Shown here: positions 2,474-12,734 of the stretch, piece after piece
How the letters are laid out: every line of letters starts with the position of its first letter
Position numbering within the stretch: position 1 is the stretch's first letter
Assembly (NCBI GenBank): GCA_016786495.1
Contig: JAEUUJ010000065.1
Coordinates: 1 to 38,610, forward strand
Source: Cyclobacteriaceae bacterium
GTDB taxonomy: Bacteria > Bacteroidota > Bacteroidia > Cytophagales > Cyclobacteriaceae
Reading direction: 5' to 3'
DNA length: 38,610 nt
Notes under the pieces: model-generated
The model's input: only the letters and a program-made list of their open reading frames with translations
What the model was told of the DNA's origin: nothing
The model's database searches: none
Program-made: the position numbers and the translations under genes

Positions 2474-3307
2474 TCAGGGCAACCTGAATTTTTCTCCCGG
2501 AAGATACACGTCAATGGAAAGTTTCCGGGCACCGAGCTTTTCGTTTTTGGAGGTTCTCGACTTTGCAGGATTTTTGTAAACCAGAACCTGCGAAGCTCCG
2601 AGTACTTCAACATTTTTTCCATTCACCAAAATCGCGGTCGATTCGTCAATGCCGATACCGGTCATCTCCGGATGTTCGATGATGGCCGTTAACAGACGGT
2701 TGTGCCGGCTGCGGATCAGAAAATGCTGATCGATGATGGTTGTGGTGAGTAGTCCGAGGCCTGTTTTGATTTCGATGTTGTTGGATTCAATTGTTTCAAA
2801 CGTAGCAGAATATTCCTTTTTCTTAAGTTCGTTACCGGTGATCATCAATTTACTCATTACAGCTGCTCCTGCGCTTGTTCCGCTCACAACAGCCCCATTG
2901 CGATAAGCATCATGGATCGCGGTGACTATTTCAGTTCCCTCCGCAATGCCCATGAACCGCGTTTGGTCGCCTCCCGTAATGTAAATCAGGTTAGCGGTGC
3001 GAATAGAATCAATCCACGAAGCTTTGATTGGCTGATCTTTTTTAAAATTAAAACCATAGAGATTTTTTATTCCGCGCTCAAGAAATTGCTGACTGGCATA
3101 GTAAACCGAAGAATCGGGATCTTCACTTGACATGGGCAGGATCACACAGTAGCCACCCGCACGCAACCCTGACTCCGCGATGATTCGCTCCACCAGGTCG
3201 TCAGGCCGCGAGCCGCCGCCAATGATAATCAGCTTGCCCTTTACAGACTGTGCCTGTGCACCCGCAACTACAATCAGCGCAACTAAAAAAATCACGAGTT
3301 TTTTCAT
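2474..3307 (-). CDS. exported cyanophycinase-like peptidase (family S51)
   Basis: The start is placed at ATG 3307, giving MKKLVIFLVALIVVAGAQAQ, a clean Sec signal peptide; a start at 3343 would add 12 residues in front of it. The 277-residue protein has the S51 nucleophile Ser146 in GTSAGAAVMS, His195 in IIDQHFLIRSR and Glu222 in GIGIDESTA. The 27-residue His-to-Glu spacing equals that of the catalytic residues described for cyanobacterial CphB, as I recall them. Family members cut cyanophycin (poly-Asp with Arg side chains) to beta-Asp-Arg dipeptides. The N-terminal signal places it in the periplasm or outside the cell, unlike the cytoplasmic cyanobacterial enzyme. It is the last gene of the six-gene minus-strand cluster, 56 bases after the preceding gene. 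True substrate specificity cannot be read from the sequence. Confidence 0.85.
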   Translation of the reverse strand: MKKLVIFLVALIVVAGAQAQSVKGKLIIIGGGSRPDDLVERIIAESGLRAGGYCVILPMSSEDPDSSVYYASQQFLERGIKNLYGFNFKKDQPIKASWIDSIRTANLIYITGGDQTRFMGIAEGTEIVTAIHDAYRNGAVVSGTSAGAAVMSKLMITGNELKKKEYSATFETIESNNIEIKTGLGLLTTTIIDQHFLIRSRHNRLLTAIIEHPEMTGIGIDESTAILVNGKNVEVLGASQVLVYKNPAKSRTSKNEKLGARKLSIDVYLPGEKFRLP

Positions 3308-3363
3308 AGGAATTAAAAAGCTCATGCCCCCTTTCGGAGACATGAGCGCTGTGTTAAAGTTTA

Positions 3364-4515
3364 TTATTCTCTTCCAATGGCAAGACCCTGGACTACTTTC
3401 CCTGTTAACCAGGTTTGTGTCCCAGTTCCGTCAAGGTTTGCACGTTTCACGACTTCATTGTTTCGATCTGCCCAATAAATCTTTTCATTTATTCTGTCGT
3501 AAGCAAGTCCGAAGATTACGCGCGACACTCCCGTGGTTACCGTAGCAATACTAGACCCGTCAAGGTTTGCGGATTTTATATGTATGTCACCCGATGCAAC
3601 ATAGACATCATAGAATATCCGAGATCCGATAATAACTGTGCTTCCACCTCCACCACCGGGACCAGCACCGTCAAGGTCAGGTATGACCTCCTGCAAGCCT
3701 GATCCATTTTTGTTTTTCCGCCACACGCCTGCATTGTAGGTATTCCAATATACAAAGCCGGTTACCGGATCGATCGAAACACCTTCCGGGTCTTCGTCTA
3801 CTTGGCCAGTGACGAAATCTTCCATCTGGTTTAAGCTCGTGTTATTCAGATCTGCCTTTCTAATACCATCGTCCGTGTCCCAGTAGATCACTTGAGCTTC
3901 ATAGTCGATGGCCATACCGTCTGCTCCCCCTGTGTTTGTTCTGAAGTCATGTAAATCAGAGCCATCCAGATTAGCAACTAGGATTTTATCGGCATCGTAG
4001 TCAGATATGTAGAGTTTAGCGTTAACAGTGTCAATTGCTATTCCATACGAATCTTCCAGTGCGGTGATTCCGATTGATACCGAAATAGGATCATCTTCAT
4101 TTATAAGAGCCTTGAATACGGCATTTCCATCCGTGAAGAACACGGGGATTCCAGTTGCATTTTGATCCAGAACCACTACTTTCTGAACATATTCCGTGGC
4201 TTCCGCAAGTTTAAAACTGGTAATGGTAAGCTTTACGTTATACACACCGGGAGCGACATACTCGTGTACCGGGTTTGTTTCGGCAGACGTACCTCCGTCA
4301 CCGAAAACCCAGGCATACGCAACTTCGCCTGCACGCTCAGGAACTATTGATTGATCTGTGAAGGTTGCTGTGGCAGGAGCAAACCCGTCGTTGGTTAACG
4401 AAACCGAAAATTTAGGTACCGTGCTGGCGGGTGGCACAGGAAAGCCGTCATCCGAGCAGCTTTCCCATGTCACAATACTCACTCCCACCAATAATATCAA
4501 TAGTATTTTCCTCAT
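3364..4515 (-). CDS. PKD plus YWTD-type beta-propeller lipoprotein
   Basis: The 383-residue protein starts with a lipoprotein signal (MRKILLILLVGVSIVTWESC), Cys20 being the likely lipidation site, although the residues before it are atypical. A PKD domain spans about residues 32-112, with the hallmark WVFGDGGTSAETNPVHEY. The rest forms LDL-receptor class B (YWTD) type repeats such as KLYISDYDADKI, VIYWDTDDGIRKADL, VYWNTYNAGVWRK and IYWADRNNEVVKRANLDG, expected to fold as a propeller. Such proteins bind ligands rather than catalyse. It sits 16 bases after a second propeller lipoprotein in the SusCD operon, the place usually held by SusE/F-like surface binding proteins. Its ligand is unknown. 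Confidence 0.8.
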   Translation of the reverse strand: MRKILLILLVGVSIVTWESCSDDGFPVPPASTVPKFSVSLTNDGFAPATATFTDQSIVPERAGEVAYAWVFGDGGTSAETNPVHEYVAPGVYNVKLTITSFKLAEATEYVQKVVVLDQNATGIPVFFTDGNAVFKALINEDDPISVSIGITALEDSYGIAIDTVNAKLYISDYDADKILVANLDGSDLHDFRTNTGGADGMAIDYEAQVIYWDTDDGIRKADLNNTSLNQMEDFVTGQVDEDPEGVSIDPVTGFVYWNTYNAGVWRKNKNGSGLQEVIPDLDGAGPGGGGGSTVIIGSRIFYDVYVASGDIHIKSANLDGSSIATVTTGVSRVIFGLAYDRINEKIYWADRNNEVVKRANLDGTGTQTWLTGKVVQGLAIGRE

Positions 4516-4531
4516 CGTGCAAAAGTTTTAC

Positions 4532-5428
4532 TTACTTAATAAACAGACCACGCGGACTTGACAAGCCGGTCTTCAATGTAATTTTGTTTTGTCCGTCAAG
4601 ATCTGCGCTATAGATCTCTCCATTGTCGCGGGCTGACCAGTATATTTTTCCAGCGGCATTATCTACTGCAATTCCATAAATTCTGGATGCTGTTGCGTCT
4701 ACGGTTTCAACTCCGCTGCCGTCCAGGTTTGCCATTCTCAATACGCCATCGCCTTCGTTTTGGTCATCGAAATAAATTTTACCATTCTTGGTGTCTACAG
4801 CAACTGCATAGCCGTAAACGTCCGGCACCACAATTTCAGCATTTTGTCCGTCAAGATCGGCAATCCACAAGTCACCAAATTCATCATCATCTTCCACATC
4901 GTAGAAATAAATCTTGTCATGCTTCAAATCCAGTGCAACTGCACGGAAGTAAGCATCGGGCATGGTGATCAGCGGCACTACATTTGAACCATCCAGGTTT
5001 GCGCGGTAGATGTGTCCGATACCATCGAGATCATAGTCGTCTGCGTAATAGATTTTACCGTCGCCAAGGGCAATGCCATAGGGTGAGTAAATTCCGGTGA
5101 TAATATCATCCAAGCCGGTAGCATCTGTTTTCATCGTCCAGATTTTACCTTCTTCATCAACTTCAAAATCACTGAAGAATATCTTATCAGTCTTCTTGTC
5201 ATATGCGAGACCTACGCCTCCGAAGCCATTGACGTCAAGTACAGTTGACATATCGGCCGGGTTACTGATGGTAAACTTTTGAATAAGTCCATCGGAATAA
5301 TCTGTGAAATAAAGTTCTTCAGCAGGAGTGGCCTTCTTGGTTGTTTCGTCATCGCTACACGCGCCAACAAAAGCTGCTACAAAAGCCAGCAGCAGGCAGG
5401 ATAATAACAGGTTGAATTTTTGTTTCAT
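4532..5428 (-). CDS. YWTD-type beta-propeller lipoprotein
   Basis: The 298-residue protein has a good lipobox (FVGAC, Cys24) after a hydrophobic signal. The whole mature part consists of repeats of about 40 residues with cores such as KIFFSDFEVDEEGKIWTM, KIYYADDYDLDGIGHIYRAN, KIYFYDVEDD, KIYFDDQNEGDGVLRMANLDG and KIYWSARDNGEIYSADLDG, the pattern of LDLR-B/YWTD propellers. Many acidic residues suggest calcium or cationic-ligand binding, which would suit an Arg-rich polymer, but this is only an inference. It follows SusD after 23 bases and shares ANLDGS-type repeats with the next gene, so the two probably arose by duplication. Confidence 0.8.
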   Translation of the reverse strand: MKQKFNLLLSCLLLAFVAAFVGACSDDETTKKATPAEELYFTDYSDGLIQKFTISNPADMSTVLDVNGFGGVGLAYDKKTDKIFFSDFEVDEEGKIWTMKTDATGLDDIITGIYSPYGIALGDGKIYYADDYDLDGIGHIYRANLDGSNVVPLITMPDAYFRAVALDLKHDKIYFYDVEDDDEFGDLWIADLDGQNAEIVVPDVYGYAVAVDTKNGKIYFDDQNEGDGVLRMANLDGSGVETVDATASRIYGIAVDNAAGKIYWSARDNGEIYSADLDGQNKITLKTGLSSPRGLFIK

Positions 5429-5451
5429 ATAGTTTGGTTTAAAGTTTACAA

Positions 5452-6774
5452 TTAATAGTCCGGATTTTGTTTCATGTCCGGATTGGTGTTGGTAAGAATT
5501 TCCGATAACGGAATTGGGAACAGTGTTTTACTTAGCTTCGTCACGTTCGGCAAAACATCCATCGCGCGATTGGTTCTTACGAGGTCGAACCAGCGGTGTC
5601 CCTCGAACGCAAATTCAACCCAGCGCTCCTGCTCAATGGCTTCCAGAAGTTCCGGAAAGGTATTGGCCGGAGTGTCGCCCAGTTCAGCACGGTTACGGAT
5701 CATATTGATGTCGCCCTGTACCAACGCCAGGTTCTGCGCCAGCCGCGCATTGGCCTCCGCACGAATTAAATACATCTCCGACAAACGCAACACAATCACA
5801 TTGTCGGCTCCGGTAGAAAGATCGTCATATTTAATGGCGTATGGAAGCGTACCATCAAAGGCAATTGACGCGTCAGCACGTGTATCACTCGGTTCAAATG
5901 CGCCCAGAATATCAGGTGTTGGTGCTAGTTCGCGTCTTCCGTTCAGCGATTTCGGAAAATTGTATTCCGCGATTCGGTTGCGAGCCTGGATGGTGAAGTC
6001 TATTTCAAAAATAGACTCAGCGGAGCCATCCGTAAATACATCTGCATAGTCATCAACAAGTGCGTAACCGCCATCATCGATCACCTCGGTAGCCCGGGTA
6101 ATGGCATCGGCATACGCGCCCATATATAAATGCACACGCGCCAACAACGCTACTGCCGCATATTTCGAAGCCCGGGTTTTTACCGACGATTCAGGCAGGT
6201 GTTCTTCGGCATATTCCAAATCCTCAACAACCTGCGCGTAAACTTCCGCTTTGGGTTTCCGCGGAACGTTCACTTCATCGGGACTGAGTGTTGGCGTTGT
6301 TTTAACAGGAACGTCTCCAAAGTAAATCATCAGGTTAAAATGATTGAGTGCACGAATGAAGTACAATTCGCCTAAAGCAATCTGCTTCTCCTCATCCGTC
6401 ATGTCTGACATGTCAGGAACTTTCGCGATAACATTGTTTGCACGATTAATTCCCTCATATGCTGAAGCCCAGATTCCCTCCACTGCACTGTTTTCCGGCT
6501 GAATATTATTATTATCGATTTCGCGGTAGTCACTTGAGGTACCATCTACCGGCTGTTCAAGATTGTCTGCGGAGAGATCCGAAAAAGTGAGGTATGATCG
6601 TCCGTAATAACTAAGGTACTGAAACGGTCCATACGAACCGAGTATACCTTTTTCTATTCCCGTTTTGTCTTTAAATGCATCGTCCTTCGGTATTCTGTTC
6701 GTTGGTTTAACATCCAGCACATCACAAGCTGAAAAGATGCCTAGTGAAATCAATGTGAAAAATATCTTTCTCAT
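5452..6774 (-). CDS. SusD/RagB-family nutrient-binding lipoprotein
   Basis: The 440-residue protein has a lipoprotein signal MRKIFFTLISLGIFSAC (Cys17). Typical SusD features are the N-terminal block DVKPTNRIPKDDAF, the helical TPR-like part with ALNHFNLMIYFGDVPV, the motif EGHRWFDLVRTNRAMDVLP and the C-terminal FPIPLSEI...PDY. It would sit on the outer leaflet as the lid of the SusC transporter and bind the oligomer to be imported. It is on the short side for the family (often 450-600 residues). It begins six bases after the susC stop, so translation is probably coupled. Confidence 0.95.
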   Translation of the reverse strand: MRKIFFTLISLGIFSACDVLDVKPTNRIPKDDAFKDKTGIEKGILGSYGPFQYLSYYGRSYLTFSDLSADNLEQPVDGTSSDYREIDNNNIQPENSAVEGIWASAYEGINRANNVIAKVPDMSDMTDEEKQIALGELYFIRALNHFNLMIYFGDVPVKTTPTLSPDEVNVPRKPKAEVYAQVVEDLEYAEEHLPESSVKTRASKYAAVALLARVHLYMGAYADAITRATEVIDDGGYALVDDYADVFTDGSAESIFEIDFTIQARNRIAEYNFPKSLNGRRELAPTPDILGAFEPSDTRADASIAFDGTLPYAIKYDDLSTGADNVIVLRLSEMYLIRAEANARLAQNLALVQGDINMIRNRAELGDTPANTFPELLEAIEQERWVEFAFEGHRWFDLVRTNRAMDVLPNVTKLSKTLFPIPLSEILTNTNPDMKQNPDY

Positions 6775-6780
6775 ACTTGC

Positions 6781-9726
6781 TTAAAATTTAAGATTAAGAC
6801 CTATCGTAAGCGATCTGGCTTGCGGGAACGTAAAGAAGTCAGTTCCCACCTGATATGTGTCGTTACCGCCATAGTTTACCTCCGGGTCAAGCCCGGAGTA
6901 TTGCGTAAACGTGAAAAGATTTTGGGCACTCACATATAAACGGAGACTCGAAACATGAACCCGCTCAAGCAGTTCCTTATTGAAGTTATAACCAAGCGTG
7001 ACGTTCTTGATGCGCAAGTAGGAGCCATCTTCAATAAAACGTGACGAAACACGTTTATTATCTGCTGCCACAGGTTCAAGCGTTGCCCGGGGAATATCAG
7101 TAATATCACCTGGGTTTTTCCACCGCCTTAGCACAGCCGTAGTTTGGTTATCACCGCCCTGCAATGACTCCAGAAACAACCGTGAACCATTAAATATGTC
7201 GTTACCATAACTAAACTGCAGGAAAACGCTCAGGTCAAACCCGGCATAAGCAAATGTATTGGTGAAACCGCCAATGAACTTAGGTTGAGGATTACCGACA
7301 ATAACACGATCTTCTATACCATCATTATTTTTATCGAGATACACAATGTCACCGGTAGAAGGGTCCACACCGAGTGATTTCAAGCTGTAGAAAATTCCCA
7401 AAGGTTGTCCCACCATAACGCTGTTGCCTCCTCGGCCAACATCAACGATTGGCTGGTTTTCGTATAGTTTTGTAACCTTGTTACGGTTCGCTGACAGGTT
7501 CAAGTTTGTCGTCCAGCGAACGGGGCCAAAGTCATGCCCGGCGCCAATGGTAAGTTCCACTCCCTGATTTTCCAACTGCCCAAGGTTTTCTGTTACTGAT
7601 GAAAACCCAGAGCTTAGCGGAAGGGGACGAGCCAAAAGCAAATCTTTTGTTTGCTTGTTATAATAATCTAACGTCACTGTTATTTTGTCATCGAACAGAC
7701 CCACATCGAGACCAAGATCAAATTGAACCGTACTTTCCCACTTTAAATTTGGGTTCGGCATGTTATCCGCGAACAGACTTGGTTGTCCTAAGTATGTGCC
7801 AGAAGCATAGTACGAAGCATACTGGAATGGTGCTGCGGCATCGTTACCCAGCAGGCCATAGCTCGCCCGTAACTTCAGCTGGGAGATTTGTTCAACATTG
7901 TCGCGGATAAATGATTCTTCACTTAATCGCCAGGCAGCAGACACTGCCGGAAAAAATCCATTTTTGTAATTCTCACCAAAATTGGTCGAGGCATCAATCC
8001 TGCCGGACAAACCAAAGAGATATTTGTTATCGAAATTATAGTTGGCCTTTCCAAAGAACGAACGAAGGCCTCTATCCAGAGCACTTGCACTAGGATCAAC
8101 AAATGTTGATGCCGAATTTAAATATTGGAGATCAGGGCTGGCATAGTCCTGGCCGCGAATGTAAATGTCGCGCACTTGTTTCTTTTCAAAGCTGTAACCC
8201 AACAAAACGTCAACGTTATGCTTATCGAACGATTTTTCGTACCGAAGAATGTTGTTGCTCACCAGGTTCAACGCATTGGTATAGGTTTCAAACCCAAGGC
8301 CGTTGTATTTCTGGCCCTGAACCGTGTTGAACTCAAAGGCGTGCTCGCGCAGGTTGTAAAAATCCATACCCCACTTCGTGGTGAACGTTAACCCGGGCAG
8401 TATCTGATACTCGGCAAATACGTTACCGATTACACGATACGTAAAGTTTTCGTTGGTTGCTTCGTTCGCGATAGAAACGGGGTTTGAGTATGTTCCATCC
8501 TGGTTATAGCTTCCGTCATCGTTGTACACGGGAAAGATCGCCGGCATGGATATCCCGTTTGGCAACGGTCCGTGCAGGGATGCATCACCTTCAATCCGAT
8601 TGCTTTTAGAGTTGGTCAAGCCCATGCTCACCCCGATGTTCAGCTTTTTGTTTACACGGTGATCCAGGTTAAAGCGTGCATTGATACGCCTGAAAGCCGA
8701 TCCGATCACAATACCATCCTGTTGAAAATAACTACCCGAAGCAAAGAATTTTGTTTTATCATCGCCGCCCGTGATGGACAGGTCGTAGCTCGACATGGGC
8801 GCAGAGCGGAAGATCACGTCTTGCCAATCGGTGTTGGGAATTGTCGGATCGTTCATGTCTGCTTCCGTGTAAACCTCTGAATCAGTCAGGTCGTTGCGGT
8901 ATTCCATCCATTGACGTTTATCAAGCATATCCAGTGTACGCCATACCTGCTGCACGCCCTGATACGTATTAAAAGCAATTACAGAGTTGCCTTTCTTTCC
9001 GCGTTTGGTATTGATGAGCACAACACCGTTTGATGCACGGGCTCCATAAATCGCGACTGCCGCTGCATCCTTCAACACGCTGAACGACTCTACTTCATTC
9101 GGGTTAAGATCGGACAGCGCGCTGATGCCCTGTCCTTCATAACCTACTTGTGCATAGTCATCGGTAGTGACCGGAATTCCATCGATTACATAAAGCGGCT
9201 GGCCGGAGCCGTTGATCGAGGTCGTTCCGCGAATGCGCACCGACATGGCTCCGCCCGGCGTACCGGAGTTTTGCGAAACTTGAATTCCAGACGTTTGACC
9301 CTGAAGAATTCCATCGATTGAACCTACCGGGAGATCTTTGATGGCATCCGCTTTTACAACACCGACCGATTCGTTCAGCAATCGTTTATCTACGGAAGTA
9401 TATCCGGTAATAACTATTTCTGAAAGCTGTTTGGTGTCTGTTTGCAGCGTCACATTTATCGCTTCGCGATTATCAATCGCAGCCTCCTGCGTGATATACC
9501 CAATGAATGAAAACACAAGGGTATTTTCACCTGAAGCAACTTCCAGCTGATACGAACCTTCCTGATCGGTTACCGTTCCTTTGCTCGTGCCTTTAACAAA
9601 CACACTTACACCGGGAAGACCTGTGCCGTCTTCCGGACTGATCACTTTTCCGCGAACAATTTTGTTTTGAGCATACAGGCTGCACGCCAGAAAGGAAAAA
9701 ATTAAAAATAGTAGAACTTTCCTCAT
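6781..9726 (-). CDS. SusC/RagA-family TonB-dependent outer-membrane transporter
   Basis: The 981-residue protein has a signal peptide ending at LYAQ, then a CarboxypepD_reg-like beta-sandwich (about residues 22-105), a plug with the SusC signatures PLYVIDGIPV and LKDAAAVAIYGARASNGVV, and a long beta-barrel ending in LTIGLNLKF with the usual C-terminal Phe. There is no N-terminal STN domain, so anti-sigma signalling is not expected. It imports oligomers across the outer membrane using TonB energy, together with SusD encoded six bases downstream. It follows the T9SS-tagged S51 peptidase by 58 bases in the same direction. Length and motifs are normal for the family. Confidence 0.96.
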   Translation of the reverse strand: MRKVLLFLIFSFLACSLYAQNKIVRGKVISPEDGTGLPGVSVFVKGTSKGTVTDQEGSYQLEVASGENTLVFSFIGYITQEAAIDNREAINVTLQTDTKQLSEIVITGYTSVDKRLLNESVGVVKADAIKDLPVGSIDGILQGQTSGIQVSQNSGTPGGAMSVRIRGTTSINGSGQPLYVIDGIPVTTDDYAQVGYEGQGISALSDLNPNEVESFSVLKDAAAVAIYGARASNGVVLINTKRGKKGNSVIAFNTYQGVQQVWRTLDMLDKRQWMEYRNDLTDSEVYTEADMNDPTIPNTDWQDVIFRSAPMSSYDLSITGGDDKTKFFASGSYFQQDGIVIGSAFRRINARFNLDHRVNKKLNIGVSMGLTNSKSNRIEGDASLHGPLPNGISMPAIFPVYNDDGSYNQDGTYSNPVSIANEATNENFTYRVIGNVFAEYQILPGLTFTTKWGMDFYNLREHAFEFNTVQGQKYNGLGFETYTNALNLVSNNILRYEKSFDKHNVDVLLGYSFEKKQVRDIYIRGQDYASPDLQYLNSASTFVDPSASALDRGLRSFFGKANYNFDNKYLFGLSGRIDASTNFGENYKNGFFPAVSAAWRLSEESFIRDNVEQISQLKLRASYGLLGNDAAAPFQYASYYASGTYLGQPSLFADNMPNPNLKWESTVQFDLGLDVGLFDDKITVTLDYYNKQTKDLLLARPLPLSSGFSSVTENLGQLENQGVELTIGAGHDFGPVRWTTNLNLSANRNKVTKLYENQPIVDVGRGGNSVMVGQPLGIFYSLKSLGVDPSTGDIVYLDKNNDGIEDRVIVGNPQPKFIGGFTNTFAYAGFDLSVFLQFSYGNDIFNGSRLFLESLQGGDNQTTAVLRRWKNPGDITDIPRATLEPVAADNKRVSSRFIEDGSYLRIKNVTLGYNFNKELLERVHVSSLRLYVSAQNLFTFTQYSGLDPEVNYGGNDTYQVGTDFFTFPQARSLTIGLNLKF

Positions 9727-9784
9727 AAGTTAAGGTTTACGTAGCAATTAAAGTTTTTCTGAGCCGATTCAAAAGGGATGCTCC

Positions 9785-11776
9785 CTAGCGAATCAGTTTC
9801 AGTGTATATTTTTTCTTACCGGAAACAACCGTCAGATAATACATGCCTGGTGCACACGAAGACAGATCAACAACATCATTCTCTCCGACAGCGGTAGTCT
9901 GAAGAATTTTGCCAACCGTATCTGAAACAGTCATCGTGGTGGGGAAAGCCATAGGACTTATTCTGACTTGAAAAATACCATTCCGGGACGGATTTGGAAA
10001 CACTTTTAGCGACAATACTTCGTCTTCTTGCGTTGCGGTGACCACTTCCGGCACGTAAGGCTCATCCGCTGACGGTTGCGCAATTCCAGCGAACAATTGT
10101 TCGGTTCCGTTCAGCAAAACATACTTCATTTCAGAAAAGCCCGCATAGTTGCGGATGTCACCCTGAGCGTTGACCGGTTTAAATGCTAATCGGGCAGGTG
10201 TCCCTGAATTCACAGCGATAATGTTGGTGAATTCACCTTCCGATTTCAAAACATTTATTCCGGCCTGCTGAGAAAAATTGACGTAGCTGTTTCGATTCAG
10301 GTAAATTCCATAGTGGAGTTTTTCTGAAATCATCGCATACGGAATGGCAGCCGTGGTGTTTTCGTAAAAGTCAGCGGTGAATTCATCATACGTATTTGAC
10401 ATTACCGATGTGGTTTGCAAAAGCGAAAGACCCTGGCGGAATTCCAATTCTCCGTAATATGCAGCCAACGCATCCGCGAGATGGTTGGTAACAAAAGTTT
10501 TTCCCGCGTAGCGACTATCCTCCCCCACAAAAGCGTTAATCATTCCGTTTCTGCGTATGTGACTGTAAATGAGTTGCCCGGTTGGCCCGTTGTCGAGAAA
10601 ATCAAATAGCGCATCATCATCGTTTTCAACAAACAAAACTTTCTTTGTTTTCCGAATATGATTTCTCAACCGTGTTCGCGATGCTACATTATCATCATCT
10701 GTTAGTTCAACAACAACTGGCTCCACCCCCAGCGACTTGATCTCCTCAATAAATGCCTGACCATTACCGGGACTTGTGATTACCAAAACAGAATCGGTGG
10801 GAGTACCGGCTTCCAGAATAAAATAGTTCAACAGGGCTTCATTGGACGAAAGACCCTCGCTGCCACTCAGAATCACTTCATAATTCCCCGTTTCGGAAGA
10901 CAATTCAGGGATAACCATCTCCTCAGAGCCTTCCAGAATTTCCAGCGTTTGAAGGTTGATGGCATTACCATATAATAATTGAGTGACGTGAACCGAGTCG
11001 CTCACCATGTTATCACCGTTCGATACGCGGAAATTCCCCGCATTATATATTGATACGGTTCCTGTTCCATACACATGTCCCACGTAGTCCTCGTCAATAC
11101 AAAGAGCCGTGCGATCGTCAACGCCTACGCCCGTCAGCAGTACACCAGACGTGGCATACCAGTTTGCCATAAAGGCCAGCAAGCGCGCACCGCGACCGCG
11201 TTCTGTGAAGTGCGTATCGGCAATAATACCCGGCAAGAAGGGAAGGAAGTCATCACGCAACGTGATGTCAGAATCTTTAAAATTTTGAAGCGCCTCGTCC
11301 GGGTATACCGAGTTATTGAGTGCTGCGTAAATAACCCCCGACAAAATCGCCATCCCGGCCGAGGTCCCGCTCATCACACCTCCGCTGTTGAACTTTTCGA
11401 CTATAGCCTGTTCGGTTTTGGTGTCGCGGAAATAATTATAGTAGTACGATTGATCGCCCCCTTTGAAAAAGAAGGCATCGTATTGCATAAGCAGATCGTA
11501 GGTTGACTGAAGATCAGCTTTAGACCGGCTATCGAGTTTTATGTTGTCGGCCGCAACCGCTCCCAGTGACTTAAAATAATCCGGGATCCAGTTATCTTCG
11601 TCTGTATAGCTGATGACGGCAACTTTTTTGTTTGGGGCCTGATTGACGATCCATGCATACGGCTCGTCACTCCAACTGTTTGCCGCTTCCGAACCTCCGC
11701 CCACGAGCACTAGTTTGCCCTGCGCACCTGCCGAAGTAGCGGCAAGCATTAAAATAAGACACCATCGCACCTTCAT
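9785..11776 (-). CDS. cyanophycinase-like S51 peptidase with T9SS sorting domain
   Basis: The 663-residue protein begins with signal peptide MKVRWCLILMLAATSAGAQ. Residues 20-260 form an S51 domain: Ser139 in MSGTSAGMAILSG, His189 in IADTHFTERGRGARLL, and Asp221 in GVGVDDRTA, where the paralogue at 2474-3307 has Glu. About 330 residues of unassigned sequence follow. The last 75 residues (VFPNPSRNGIFQVRI to GMYYLTVVSGKKKYTLKLIR) form a type A T9SS sorting domain, so the enzyme should be released or anchored at the cell surface. It is the first gene of the SusCD cluster. In that place it would cut a polymer outside the cell so that SusCD can import the fragments. Cyanophycin is the family substrate, but other peptides are possible. 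Confidence 0.85.
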   Translation of the reverse strand: MKVRWCLILMLAATSAGAQGKLVLVGGGSEAANSWSDEPYAWIVNQAPNKKVAVISYTDEDNWIPDYFKSLGAVAADNIKLDSRSKADLQSTYDLLMQYDAFFFKGGDQSYYYNYFRDTKTEQAIVEKFNSGGVMSGTSAGMAILSGVIYAALNNSVYPDEALQNFKDSDITLRDDFLPFLPGIIADTHFTERGRGARLLAFMANWYATSGVLLTGVGVDDRTALCIDEDYVGHVYGTGTVSIYNAGNFRVSNGDNMVSDSVHVTQLLYGNAINLQTLEILEGSEEMVIPELSSETGNYEVILSGSEGLSSNEALLNYFILEAGTPTDSVLVITSPGNGQAFIEEIKSLGVEPVVVELTDDDNVASRTRLRNHIRKTKKVLFVENDDDALFDFLDNGPTGQLIYSHIRRNGMINAFVGEDSRYAGKTFVTNHLADALAAYYGELEFRQGLSLLQTTSVMSNTYDEFTADFYENTTAAIPYAMISEKLHYGIYLNRNSYVNFSQQAGINVLKSEGEFTNIIAVNSGTPARLAFKPVNAQGDIRNYAGFSEMKYVLLNGTEQLFAGIAQPSADEPYVPEVVTATQEDEVLSLKVFPNPSRNGIFQVRISPMAFPTTMTVSDTVGKILQTTAVGENDVVDLSSCAPGMYYLTVVSGKKKYTLKLIR

Positions 11777-11833: not shown

Positions 11834-12301
11834 TTATCGTGTTGACGGAGTCCAAAGGCCGAGCCAGACATTTAAGGAAAGGCCACCCAACACGAGCAGG
11901 CGAATGAGTACCGGCAAAAATTTCTGTGCACGTCCTGTCACCGCCAGAAAAATCATCATCACACCACTTAAAGCCATGCTTGCCAAACCAATGAGCAATT
12001 GTTCCTTCGCTCCGGGCAACCTCATGATTGTAAAAAGTAAGCCGATAACGCTAACGGAACTTGCAATCTGAAAAACCTGGGATACAATGATCAACACGTT
12101 GCCCTCCTGCCTTTGGATAAAAGCCGTAAGAAAGTAAAAACTGGCGAGCACCAACATGGCGAGCATCAAAGCGTCTTCCGATCTCTGAATGTTAGAGAAT
12201 TTCATGGCCACCGCCAGCACGACCAGCGCTGCAAAAATGATCTCCAGAATAATCTCGCGATCCTTTACCCAGCGGGAAATGCTCTCGGGGAGTTGAGTCA
12301 T
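11834..12301 (-). CDS. small multi-pass membrane protein, unknown function
   Basis: This 155-residue protein has four predicted membrane segments: EIIFAALVVLAVAMKF, DALMLAMLVLASFYFLTAFI, VLIIVSQVFQIASSVSVIGLLFTI and QLLIGLASMALSGVMMIFLAV, with a further hydrophobic stretch at the C-terminus. I do not recognise the family. It lies 57 bases upstream of the S51/SusCD cluster in the same direction and could be co-transcribed with it, although nothing in the protein suggests a role in uptake. Confidence 0.7.
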   Translation of the reverse strand: MTQLPESISRWVKDREIILEIIFAALVVLAVAMKFSNIQRSEDALMLAMLVLASFYFLTAFIQRQEGNVLIIVSQVFQIASSVSVIGLLFTIMRLPGAKEQLLIGLASMALSGVMMIFLAVTGRAQKFLPVLIRLLVLGGLSLNVWLGLWTPSTR

Positions 12302-12445
12302 GGAAAGTGATTTAGCGATGTTAAATTAAACTTATCTGTGAAAATATTTCTACGCCGGTTGCGGCATATTAAATGAAAATCATGGCTTCTGGTAGTTTTT
12401 CGACTGGCGCACAATTTGTTTCCGGCTTTGTAAACTTCTATCACG

Positions 12446-12598
12446 ATGACAACCGCTACTTTACAGCATCCGAATTCGTCACAGGCCGGACAGGCCGTTC
12501 AGCACGTTGTTAAAACTGCCATCAAACTTAAGGCAACAACCGCTGCGATTTGTGGCTCCGCATTGAAACGCTGGAGCATTGTTTGGTCAAATCAGTAA
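12446..12598 (+). CDS. possible small protein, 50 residues
   Basis: An ATG at 12446 opens a 50-residue frame, MTTATLQHPNSSQAGQAVQ... ending in GSALKRWSIVWSNQ. It has a polar N-terminus and a basic, amphipathic C-terminal half. It fills part of the 433-base gap between the membrane protein and the TonB-domain lipoprotein. The balanced composition and lack of a competing frame make it plausible, but I recognise no family and see no ribosome binding site, as is usual in this phylum. Another frame of 46 residues starting at 12373 overlaps it and looks worse. Confidence 0.4.
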   Translation: MTTATLQHPNSSQAGQAVQHVVKTAIKLKATTAAICGSALKRWSIVWSNQ

Positions 12599-12628
12599 CA
12601 CCGTATTCATCAAATGAGGTGAGGTCAC

Positions 12629-12637
12629 TGTGGATAA
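12629..12637 (-). other. perfect DnaA-box 9-mer
   Basis: TGTGGATAA is the exact complement of TTATCCACA, the strong DnaA box. It lies in the intergenic region upstream of the TonB-domain lipoprotein. A second perfect copy occurs at 15364-15372. By simple base counting about 0.3 copies are expected in a window of this size, so chance cannot be excluded. Confidence 0.35.
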
Positions 12638-12734
12638 AAGTCCCCGGTGTTAGTTCTCTATTGTGAAAAACCTGCCCGTGTGAGCGCTAATGGTATTGGC
12701 ATCATTCTTACCTGCGTTAATCAAAAATAACCTT

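Follow-up and report, generated by a model that had tools for sequence, protein, structure and literature searches.

We identified six genes on the minus strand (positions 2474..11776) of a 38,610-nucleotide stretch of Cyclobacteriaceae genome sequence (contig JAEUUJ010000065.1, assembly GCA_016786495.1; the whole stretch is hereafter the window) that we interpret, with a probability of about 0.83, as a cyanophycin utilization locus. Cyanophycin, which other bacteria make to store nitrogen, would be clipped at the cell surface, its oligomers imported, and these trimmed in the periplasm. In order along the minus strand, the genes encode an S51 peptidase tagged for the type IX secretion system (T9SS), SusC, SusD, two propeller lipoproteins and an exported S51 peptidase. 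The order recurs across other genomes, indicating that the arrangement in the window did not arise by chance. The locus is real, conserved and of a known kind, and is present here in a lineage-specific reduced form.

Gene content of the locus

Gene families were called by Pfam and NCBIfam scans with curated cut-offs, whereas N-terminal export signals and lipoprotein cysteines are by-eye readings. An earlier, sequence-only reading of the window had described the same six co-directional genes, with gaps of 6 to 58 bases. All six are present with their families confirmed by the scans, and the gaps hold for the open reading frames (ORFs) as called (58, 6, 23, 16 and 20 nt), but the last becomes 56 nt when the start of the small S51 gene is moved from 3343 to 3307 (see below).

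The SusC and SusD genes are adjacent, 6 nt apart, as in SusCD-type uptake loci. The two S51 genes flank this pair, giving the cluster of cyanophycinase-type genes with a transporter that is characteristic of cyanophycin utilization loci. The isoaspartyl dipeptidase gene (iadA or iaaA) clustered in such loci has no counterpart in the window, as the sequence-only reading had remarked. Both propeller lipoproteins open, by eye, with C-S-D-D, which fits the lipoprotein surface export signal (LES) consensus SDDDD/SDDFE (PMC5080379). Upstream of the locus, a near relative carries a 1542-aa ORF (L029:4846-9474); in the window, its place is taken by a short stretch (~12301-12690) that has no ORF of this kind.

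Active-site residues of the S51 proteins

Using the critical CphB residues and their CphE equivalents as reported (PMC3235067), we found Q101, S132, D172, H174, R178, R180 and R183 retained in the two S51 proteins of the window as well as in a third S51 protein of the host, so that all three keep the Ser-His pair and the Gln/Asp/Arg pocket. As controls, 12 short S51 proteins with weak matches were taken from a TIGR02069 scan of 148 genomes of the family. Ten of these were scanned for identity; three are PepE over the cut-off and seven reach neither the PepE nor the cyanophycinase cut-off. Q101, D172 and R178 are lacking in 12/12 controls. The third host S51 protein (L002:1255-2259, G000:C62) is unlinked in the host, and its homologues (40-48% identity) sit in the surface-S51 loci L017, L021, L050 and L057.

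These residues bear on the possibility that the locus imports peptides in general. RagAB is a general peptide-import system, and in a system of that kind the S51 proteins would be PepE-like aspartyl dipeptidases acting on protein fragments. PepE also belongs to S51, the small S51 protein matches the PepE model NF003642 weakly (39.6 bits), and the SusC/RagA model is blind to the difference between sugar and peptide importers. However, the PepE cut-off of 156 bits is far from reached, the three cyanophycinase-type pocket residues are absent from every control, including the three true PepE, and the dipeptidases linked to the locus in relatives match isoaspartyl families. We therefore regard general peptide import as very unlikely. 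The surface S51 protein has no listed match to NF003642.

The small S51 protein exceeds the curated cut-off of the cyanophycinase model TIGR02069 (164.3 against 126.6 bits). It keeps the full residue set of Synechocystis CphB (PDB 3en0, 7uqw) at 9/9 compared positions, with Glu at the catalytic E201. CphB is intracellular, whereas the small S51 protein has, by eye, a plain signal peptide, and a number of relatives show a lipobox-like Cys at the N-terminus. Across 42 small-type sequences, some from loci without SusCD, the key positions are invariant among the residues present, except R178 (41/42) and R183 (37/42).

Tandem S51 domains in the surface protein

The surface S51 protein carries the CphE residue set, with Thr at the position of CphB Gln173. 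Its AlphaFold2 (AF2) model (mean pLDDT 82) finds cyanophycinases (7uqv, 7uqw and 3en0; TMt 0.75-0.81) as best Foldseek matches. In 82 surface-type sequences, the window's included, the key positions are invariant among the 77-79 with a residue there, other than R183 (76/77) and the acid position discussed below; the Gln173 position holds Thr in 52, Ser in 25 and Gln in 0.

Residues 290-530 form a second S51 fold, modelled by AF2 with a mean pLDDT of 95.5, for which the best Foldseek matches are again cyanophycinases (7uqv and 3en0, TMq 0.67-0.72). A profile built from a 53-sequence alignment of this second domain matches 3en0 over nearly its entire length (E 7.1e-7). By hhalign it matches the small S51 protein at 95.6% (0.1-0.2% for five column shuffles) and the first domain of its own protein at 35.7%. 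This alignment overturned an earlier result from 10 sequences, in which the two halves of the protein had shown no likeness (hhalign 2-4%). When aligned to CphB, the second domain has Gly418 at the catalytic Ser position (Gly in 47/53 sequences, Ser in 3/53) and Thr462 at the catalytic His position (His in 0/53). Since both catalytic residues are replaced, we read the second copy as a pseudo-domain, which perhaps serves binding or acts as an internal dimer partner. This half is covered by at least 200 residues in 66/82 surface-type homologues.

Distribution of the locus

TIGR02069 matches occur in 74/148 genomes of the family, 29 of them over the cut-off. A large and a small S51 gene lie ~8-9.5 kb apart on one contig in 9/148 genomes, host included, and three further genomes (G112, G077 and G002) hold both kinds on separate contigs. 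The sequence-only reading had proposed a check of gene order in relatives, and the order does recur. Among the eight other paired genomes it is intact in six, while L014 has a split surface S51 gene and L015 has a split surface S51 gene, a split SusD gene and one propeller gene. The same core is found in seven loci of named genomes (L029, L031, L033, L049, L059, L074 and L075), which come from the 80 best-ranking relatives out of at least 503. Named strains that share the six-gene core are Chryseolinea serpens and Pseudochryseolinea flava. A single propeller gene is present in L059, L074 and L075, and L074 and L075 have an extra gene ahead of the small S51 gene.

Partner genes in related loci

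We compared 96 loci, after dropping four duplicate contigs, of which 78 have a surface-type S51 gene; partners were assigned by best BLAST match, and loci end at ~10 kb or at contig ends. Partners among the 78 loci are SusD (25), the small S51 protein (32), a DcuC-family transporter (32), the dipeptidases IadA (11) and IaaA (8), an M14 peptidase (22) and an ECF-sigma-like protein (9). IadA representatives score 504.6 (L036) and 478.3 bits, over the cut-off of 331. For IaaA, PF01112 gives the representatives 360.6 and 345.8 bits; they remain under the cut-off of the beta-aspartyl-peptidase equivalog, which is 567. Representatives of the transporter score 313-356 bits with PF03606. Against the YfcC equivalog they reach 341-398 bits where 500 are required, so that YfcC is an approximate name for them.

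Arginine dihydrolase-like and arginine deiminase-like genes lie beside S51 genes in 2/78 loci, the closely related L050 and L051. They directly follow IaaA (L050:16425-19477 and L051:15538-18201), and those of L050 score 154.5 and 264.8 bits, respectively, both below the curated cut-offs. The IadA loci and L050/L051 have the same components as the window in a different order.

These genes bear on the identity of the substrate, which might instead be a different beta-aspartyl polymer or a Lys-rich cyanophycin variant. The assignment to arginine cyanophycin draws on homology to CphB and CphE, isoaspartyl dipeptidases are promiscuous, and lysine is added by some CphA1 enzymes (PMC10206079). The window S51 proteins, however, keep the pocket arginines and Gln, and the arginine-related genes of L050 and L051 also favor arginine cyanophycin, which makes another substrate quite unlikely.

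In the 73 loci compared for what immediately follows the surface S51 gene, this is SusC in 15, M14 in 15 and IadA in 7; the rest have other genes, the opposite strand or a contig end. In 9/15 cases the M14 gene overlaps the S51 gene by 4 nt. From its position, the M14 peptidase (L071:11980-13473, L068:11950-13452 and 20 others) is a candidate isoaspartyl dipeptidase; 3/22 of the M14 matches are weak (25-27% identity). IaaA, IadA and M14 co-occur in 0/78 loci, a pattern that follows lineages and incomplete contigs and so provides no independent test. Three genomes with IaaA (G107, G153 and G154) hold M14 homologues (149-185 bits) away from the locus, so finding an M14 gene in a genome is by itself hardly informative. 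L071, L068 and similar Ignavibacteria loci combine the surface S51 gene with genes for a weakly SusC-like receptor, a PorV-like protein, an RpiR-type regulator and a T9SS-tagged protein, with no SusD match by BLAST.

We refer to five genomes (the host, G136, G127, G148 and G149) as Chryseolinea-type, after L031 (C. serpens). They are part of a set of 19 genomes with the locus or parts of it. In the 14 outside the Chryseolinea type, IaaA lies within 10 kb of the locus S51 gene in nine, at 23-39 kb on the same contig in four and on another contig in one.

The host genome and points against the reading

Cyanophycin synthetase CphA1 was not found in the host genome (best 114 bits against a cut-off of 850), and scavenging therefore fits. 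Scavenger genomes have been counted as lacking cphA1 (PMC10206079), a feature that the host shares. Cyanophycinase genes are often clustered with cphA1 (PMC10206079), and S51 proteins could recycle stored cyanophycin of the cell's own. For the window, such recycling is most improbable given the lack of a CphA1 over the cut-off, the T9SS tag on the surface S51 protein and the N-terminal signals seen by eye on both S51 proteins.

Several observations weigh against a cyanophycin utilization locus. The host genome has no IaaA (0 Asparaginase_2 matches), no IadA over the cut-off (22.7 bits) and no DcuC-type transporter that we could find. Two genomes of the same genus were sampled, and neither showed the paired locus (a single S51 gene in G065, none in G122). 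At 101.2 bits the surface S51 protein stays below the TIGR02069 cut-off of 126.6, for which reason we label it cyanophycinase-like, although CphE-type residues are kept. It also carries Asp in place of the catalytic Glu of CphB (E201); among the 78 surface-type homologues with a residue there, the position is D in 57, E in 14 and other in 7. Finally, R180 is common to 12/12 controls and R183 to 3/12, so neither discriminates cyanophycinases from other S51 proteins.

Because the host shows no IaaA, no IadA over the cut-off and no DcuC-type transporter, the sequence-only reading went too far in proposing a complete pathway. Its substrate, cyanophycin or a close beta-Asp-linked polymer, is supported by the active-site residues, by the failure to find a synthetase in the host, and by relatives in which the same components stand beside IaaA, IadA or the DcuC-family gene. 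That reading had also suggested a search for a dipeptidase and Arg catabolic genes elsewhere in the genome. No dipeptidase was found over the cut-offs in the host; three arginase-family genes were, but the family is present in 19/19 genomes and does not discriminate.

DcuC-family genes are present in 14/19 genomes, and the five without them are the Chryseolinea-type genomes, in which the surface S51 protein is closest to that of the window (54-76% identity). IadA over the cut-off was found in 0/19. Asparaginase_2 occurs in 18/19, the host being the exception: G127 and G149 have high-scoring matches, which do not belong to the genes observed next to the locus, and G148, the genome of L029, has one match of the lower-scoring kind (234 bits), which we take to be glycosylasparaginase-like. 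A DNA search of the host for the neighborhood of this G148 gene was empty, but had no positive control. By protein search, the adjacent 471-aa gene is present in G148 and G136 and was not found in the host. As this neighbor is missing too, the absence of Asparaginase_2 may reflect an assembly gap or loss of a block. M14 proteins of the host (a 539-aa distant homologue at 65 bits and a fragmentary match at 22.6 bits) were not taken as the missing dipeptidase.

A hairpin ahead of the last gene

The small S51 ORF opens at 3343. Its L029 homologue begins at the position corresponding to 3307, which we take as the most likely start (MKKLVIF...). The resulting 56-nt gap holds a 12-bp hairpin followed by a T run (3320-3347). 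We folded the same place in four other Chryseolinea-type loci (L029, L031, L009 and L011) and found a hairpin in each (z -3.2 to -5.8). Across the 21 relatives' loci folded, z is <= -2.5 in 14, -2.2 in L010 and -1.7 to 1.1 in L008, L018, L020, L034, L036 and L059; in this set L013/L014 and L074/L075 are near-identical pairs, and the preceding gene in L041 is an ECF sigma gene. The hairpins differ in sequence. A scan of the window found 17 sigma-70 promoters (15.7 expected by chance) and 15 terminators (12.0 expected). As these counts are near chance, the case for the hairpin is made by its stem length and by the relatives. The hairpin may reduce transcription into the small S51 gene, and a single uniform operon is therefore not to be assumed. 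Table 1 gives the coordinates of all features.

Table 1. Features of the putative cyanophycin utilization locus, in order along the minus strand.
Feature	Position	Strand	Evidence
T9SS-exported tandem S51 protein (CphE-like surface cyanophycinase, putative), 663 aa	9785..11776	-	PF03575 33.9 bits; TIGR02069 101.2 bits; TIGR04183 44 bits
S51 domain 1 (predicted catalytic)	10991..11725	-	GGDQ, GTSAG, DTHF..R.R..R; residues aligned to CphB/CphE
S51 domain 2, degenerate pseudo-domain	10187..10909	-	AF2, Foldseek, profile match, hhalign
Type A T9SS sorting domain, residues 592-662	9791..10003	-	TIGR04183 44.3 bits
SusC/RagA outer-membrane TonB-dependent transporter	6781..9726	-	TIGR04056 889 bits (cut-off 368)
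SusD-like lipoprotein, C-DVLDV by eye	5452..6774	-	PF14322 101 bits; PF07980 91 bits
Propeller lipoprotein (DUF5050/LDLR-B), N-terminus C-SDDE by eye, surface-export-signal-like	4532..5428	-	PF16472 52.5 bits; PF00058 26.5 bits
PKD + LDLR-B propeller lipoprotein, N-terminus C-SDDG by eye	3364..4515	-	PF18911 47 bits; PF00058 25 bits
Terminator-like hairpin, 12 bp, ahead of last gene	3320..3347	-	Folding and relatives
Exported CphB-type S51 cyanophycinase (putative), start corrected	2474..3307	-	TIGR02069 164.3 bits; phmmer 7uqv E 4.6e-28, 3en0 E 3.8e-22

Comparison with known systems

SusCD polysaccharide utilization loci comprise a SusC/SusD pair, lipoproteins, a surface enzyme and a periplasmic enzyme. 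The window has the same layout, with peptidases in place of glycoside hydrolases. Clusters for cyanophycin scavenging have been described, and the term cyanophycin utilization locus, used for Salinivirga cyanobacteriivorans, is credited to Ben Hania et al. 2017 (PMC10206079; also cited in PMC6243061). Salinivirga cyanobacteriivorans has cyanophycinase genes together with a transporter for scavenging (PMC10206079) and two S51 types, one with a Por domain (PMC6243061). The window likewise has two S51 proteins, one of them with a Por (T9SS) domain, and cyanophycinase-type genes with a transporter; the Salinivirga locus includes iadA, whereas no dipeptidase was found in the window or elsewhere in the host genome. 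The exported S51 protein CphE of Pseudomonas, which is extracellular (PMC3235067), resembles the surface S51 protein in its export and in Thr for CphB Gln173; the surface protein differs in its T9SS tag, in its degenerate second S51 domain and in having Asp in place of the catalytic Glu. A cluster of Flammeovirga pacifica WPAGA1 has been cited as cyanophycin-scavenging (PMC10206079). In our comparison, the F. pacifica locus L059 runs surface S51-SusC-SusD-propeller-small S51, like the window, but with one propeller gene rather than two, and continues with IaaA and a DcuC-family gene.

A more distant parallel is found in Citromicrobium sp. JLT1363, an alphaproteobacterium. For this organism, the location of a TonB-dependent transporter gene near a cyanophycinase gene led in 2012 to the proposal that cyanophycin is a TonB-transporter substrate; the accessible part of that article mentions no SusD, lipoproteins or second S51 protein (PMC3400609). 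We saw no SusCD named in a cyanophycin locus in the open-access literature searched, subscription papers being largely outside this scope, and the accessible parts of PMC11573002 and PMC10100682 describe none. The cyanophycin kit is already known in kind. What differs is the reduced form, lacking the customary final enzyme and the transporter of the inner membrane, with no DcuC-type transporter in the host or the four allied genomes.

Proposed mechanism and implications

We propose that the tandem S51 protein, with its first copy active, would sit at the cell surface and clip exogenous cyanophycin, while SusD and the two propeller lipoproteins would hold the polymer or its oligomers. SusC would import the oligomers, (beta-Asp-Arg)n, and the exported CphB-type S51 protein would trim them to beta-Asp-Arg in the periplasm. 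Inner-membrane uptake and the final isoaspartyl cleavage would be carried out by other proteins in the host lineage.

The tandem pseudo-S51 domain and the M14 partner are new leads. We tentatively suggest a broader scheme, which we hold at somewhat less than even odds, in which the surface enzyme of Bacteroidota, Ignavibacteria and allies is a tandem S51 protein with one active and one dead copy, and the last step falls to IaaA, IadA or an M14 peptidase that is exported, enzymes unrelated to one another whose genes hold swappable positions. The M14 peptidase would then be an undescribed isoaspartyl dipeptidase, and the Chryseolinea-type genomes would use another, unlinked one. For cphA1-bearing genomes of Firmicutes and Bacteroidota, the isoaspartyl dipeptidases are stated to "remain undiscovered" (PMC10206079). 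With the M14 peptidase as a concrete candidate, and with a lineage that has no linked known dipeptidase, this question becomes testable. The comparison also allows a form of the Sus system directed at a peptide polymer to be studied across genomes, and suggests that many Bacteroidota and their allies may be able to feed on a polymer, rich in nitrogen, that other bacteria produce.

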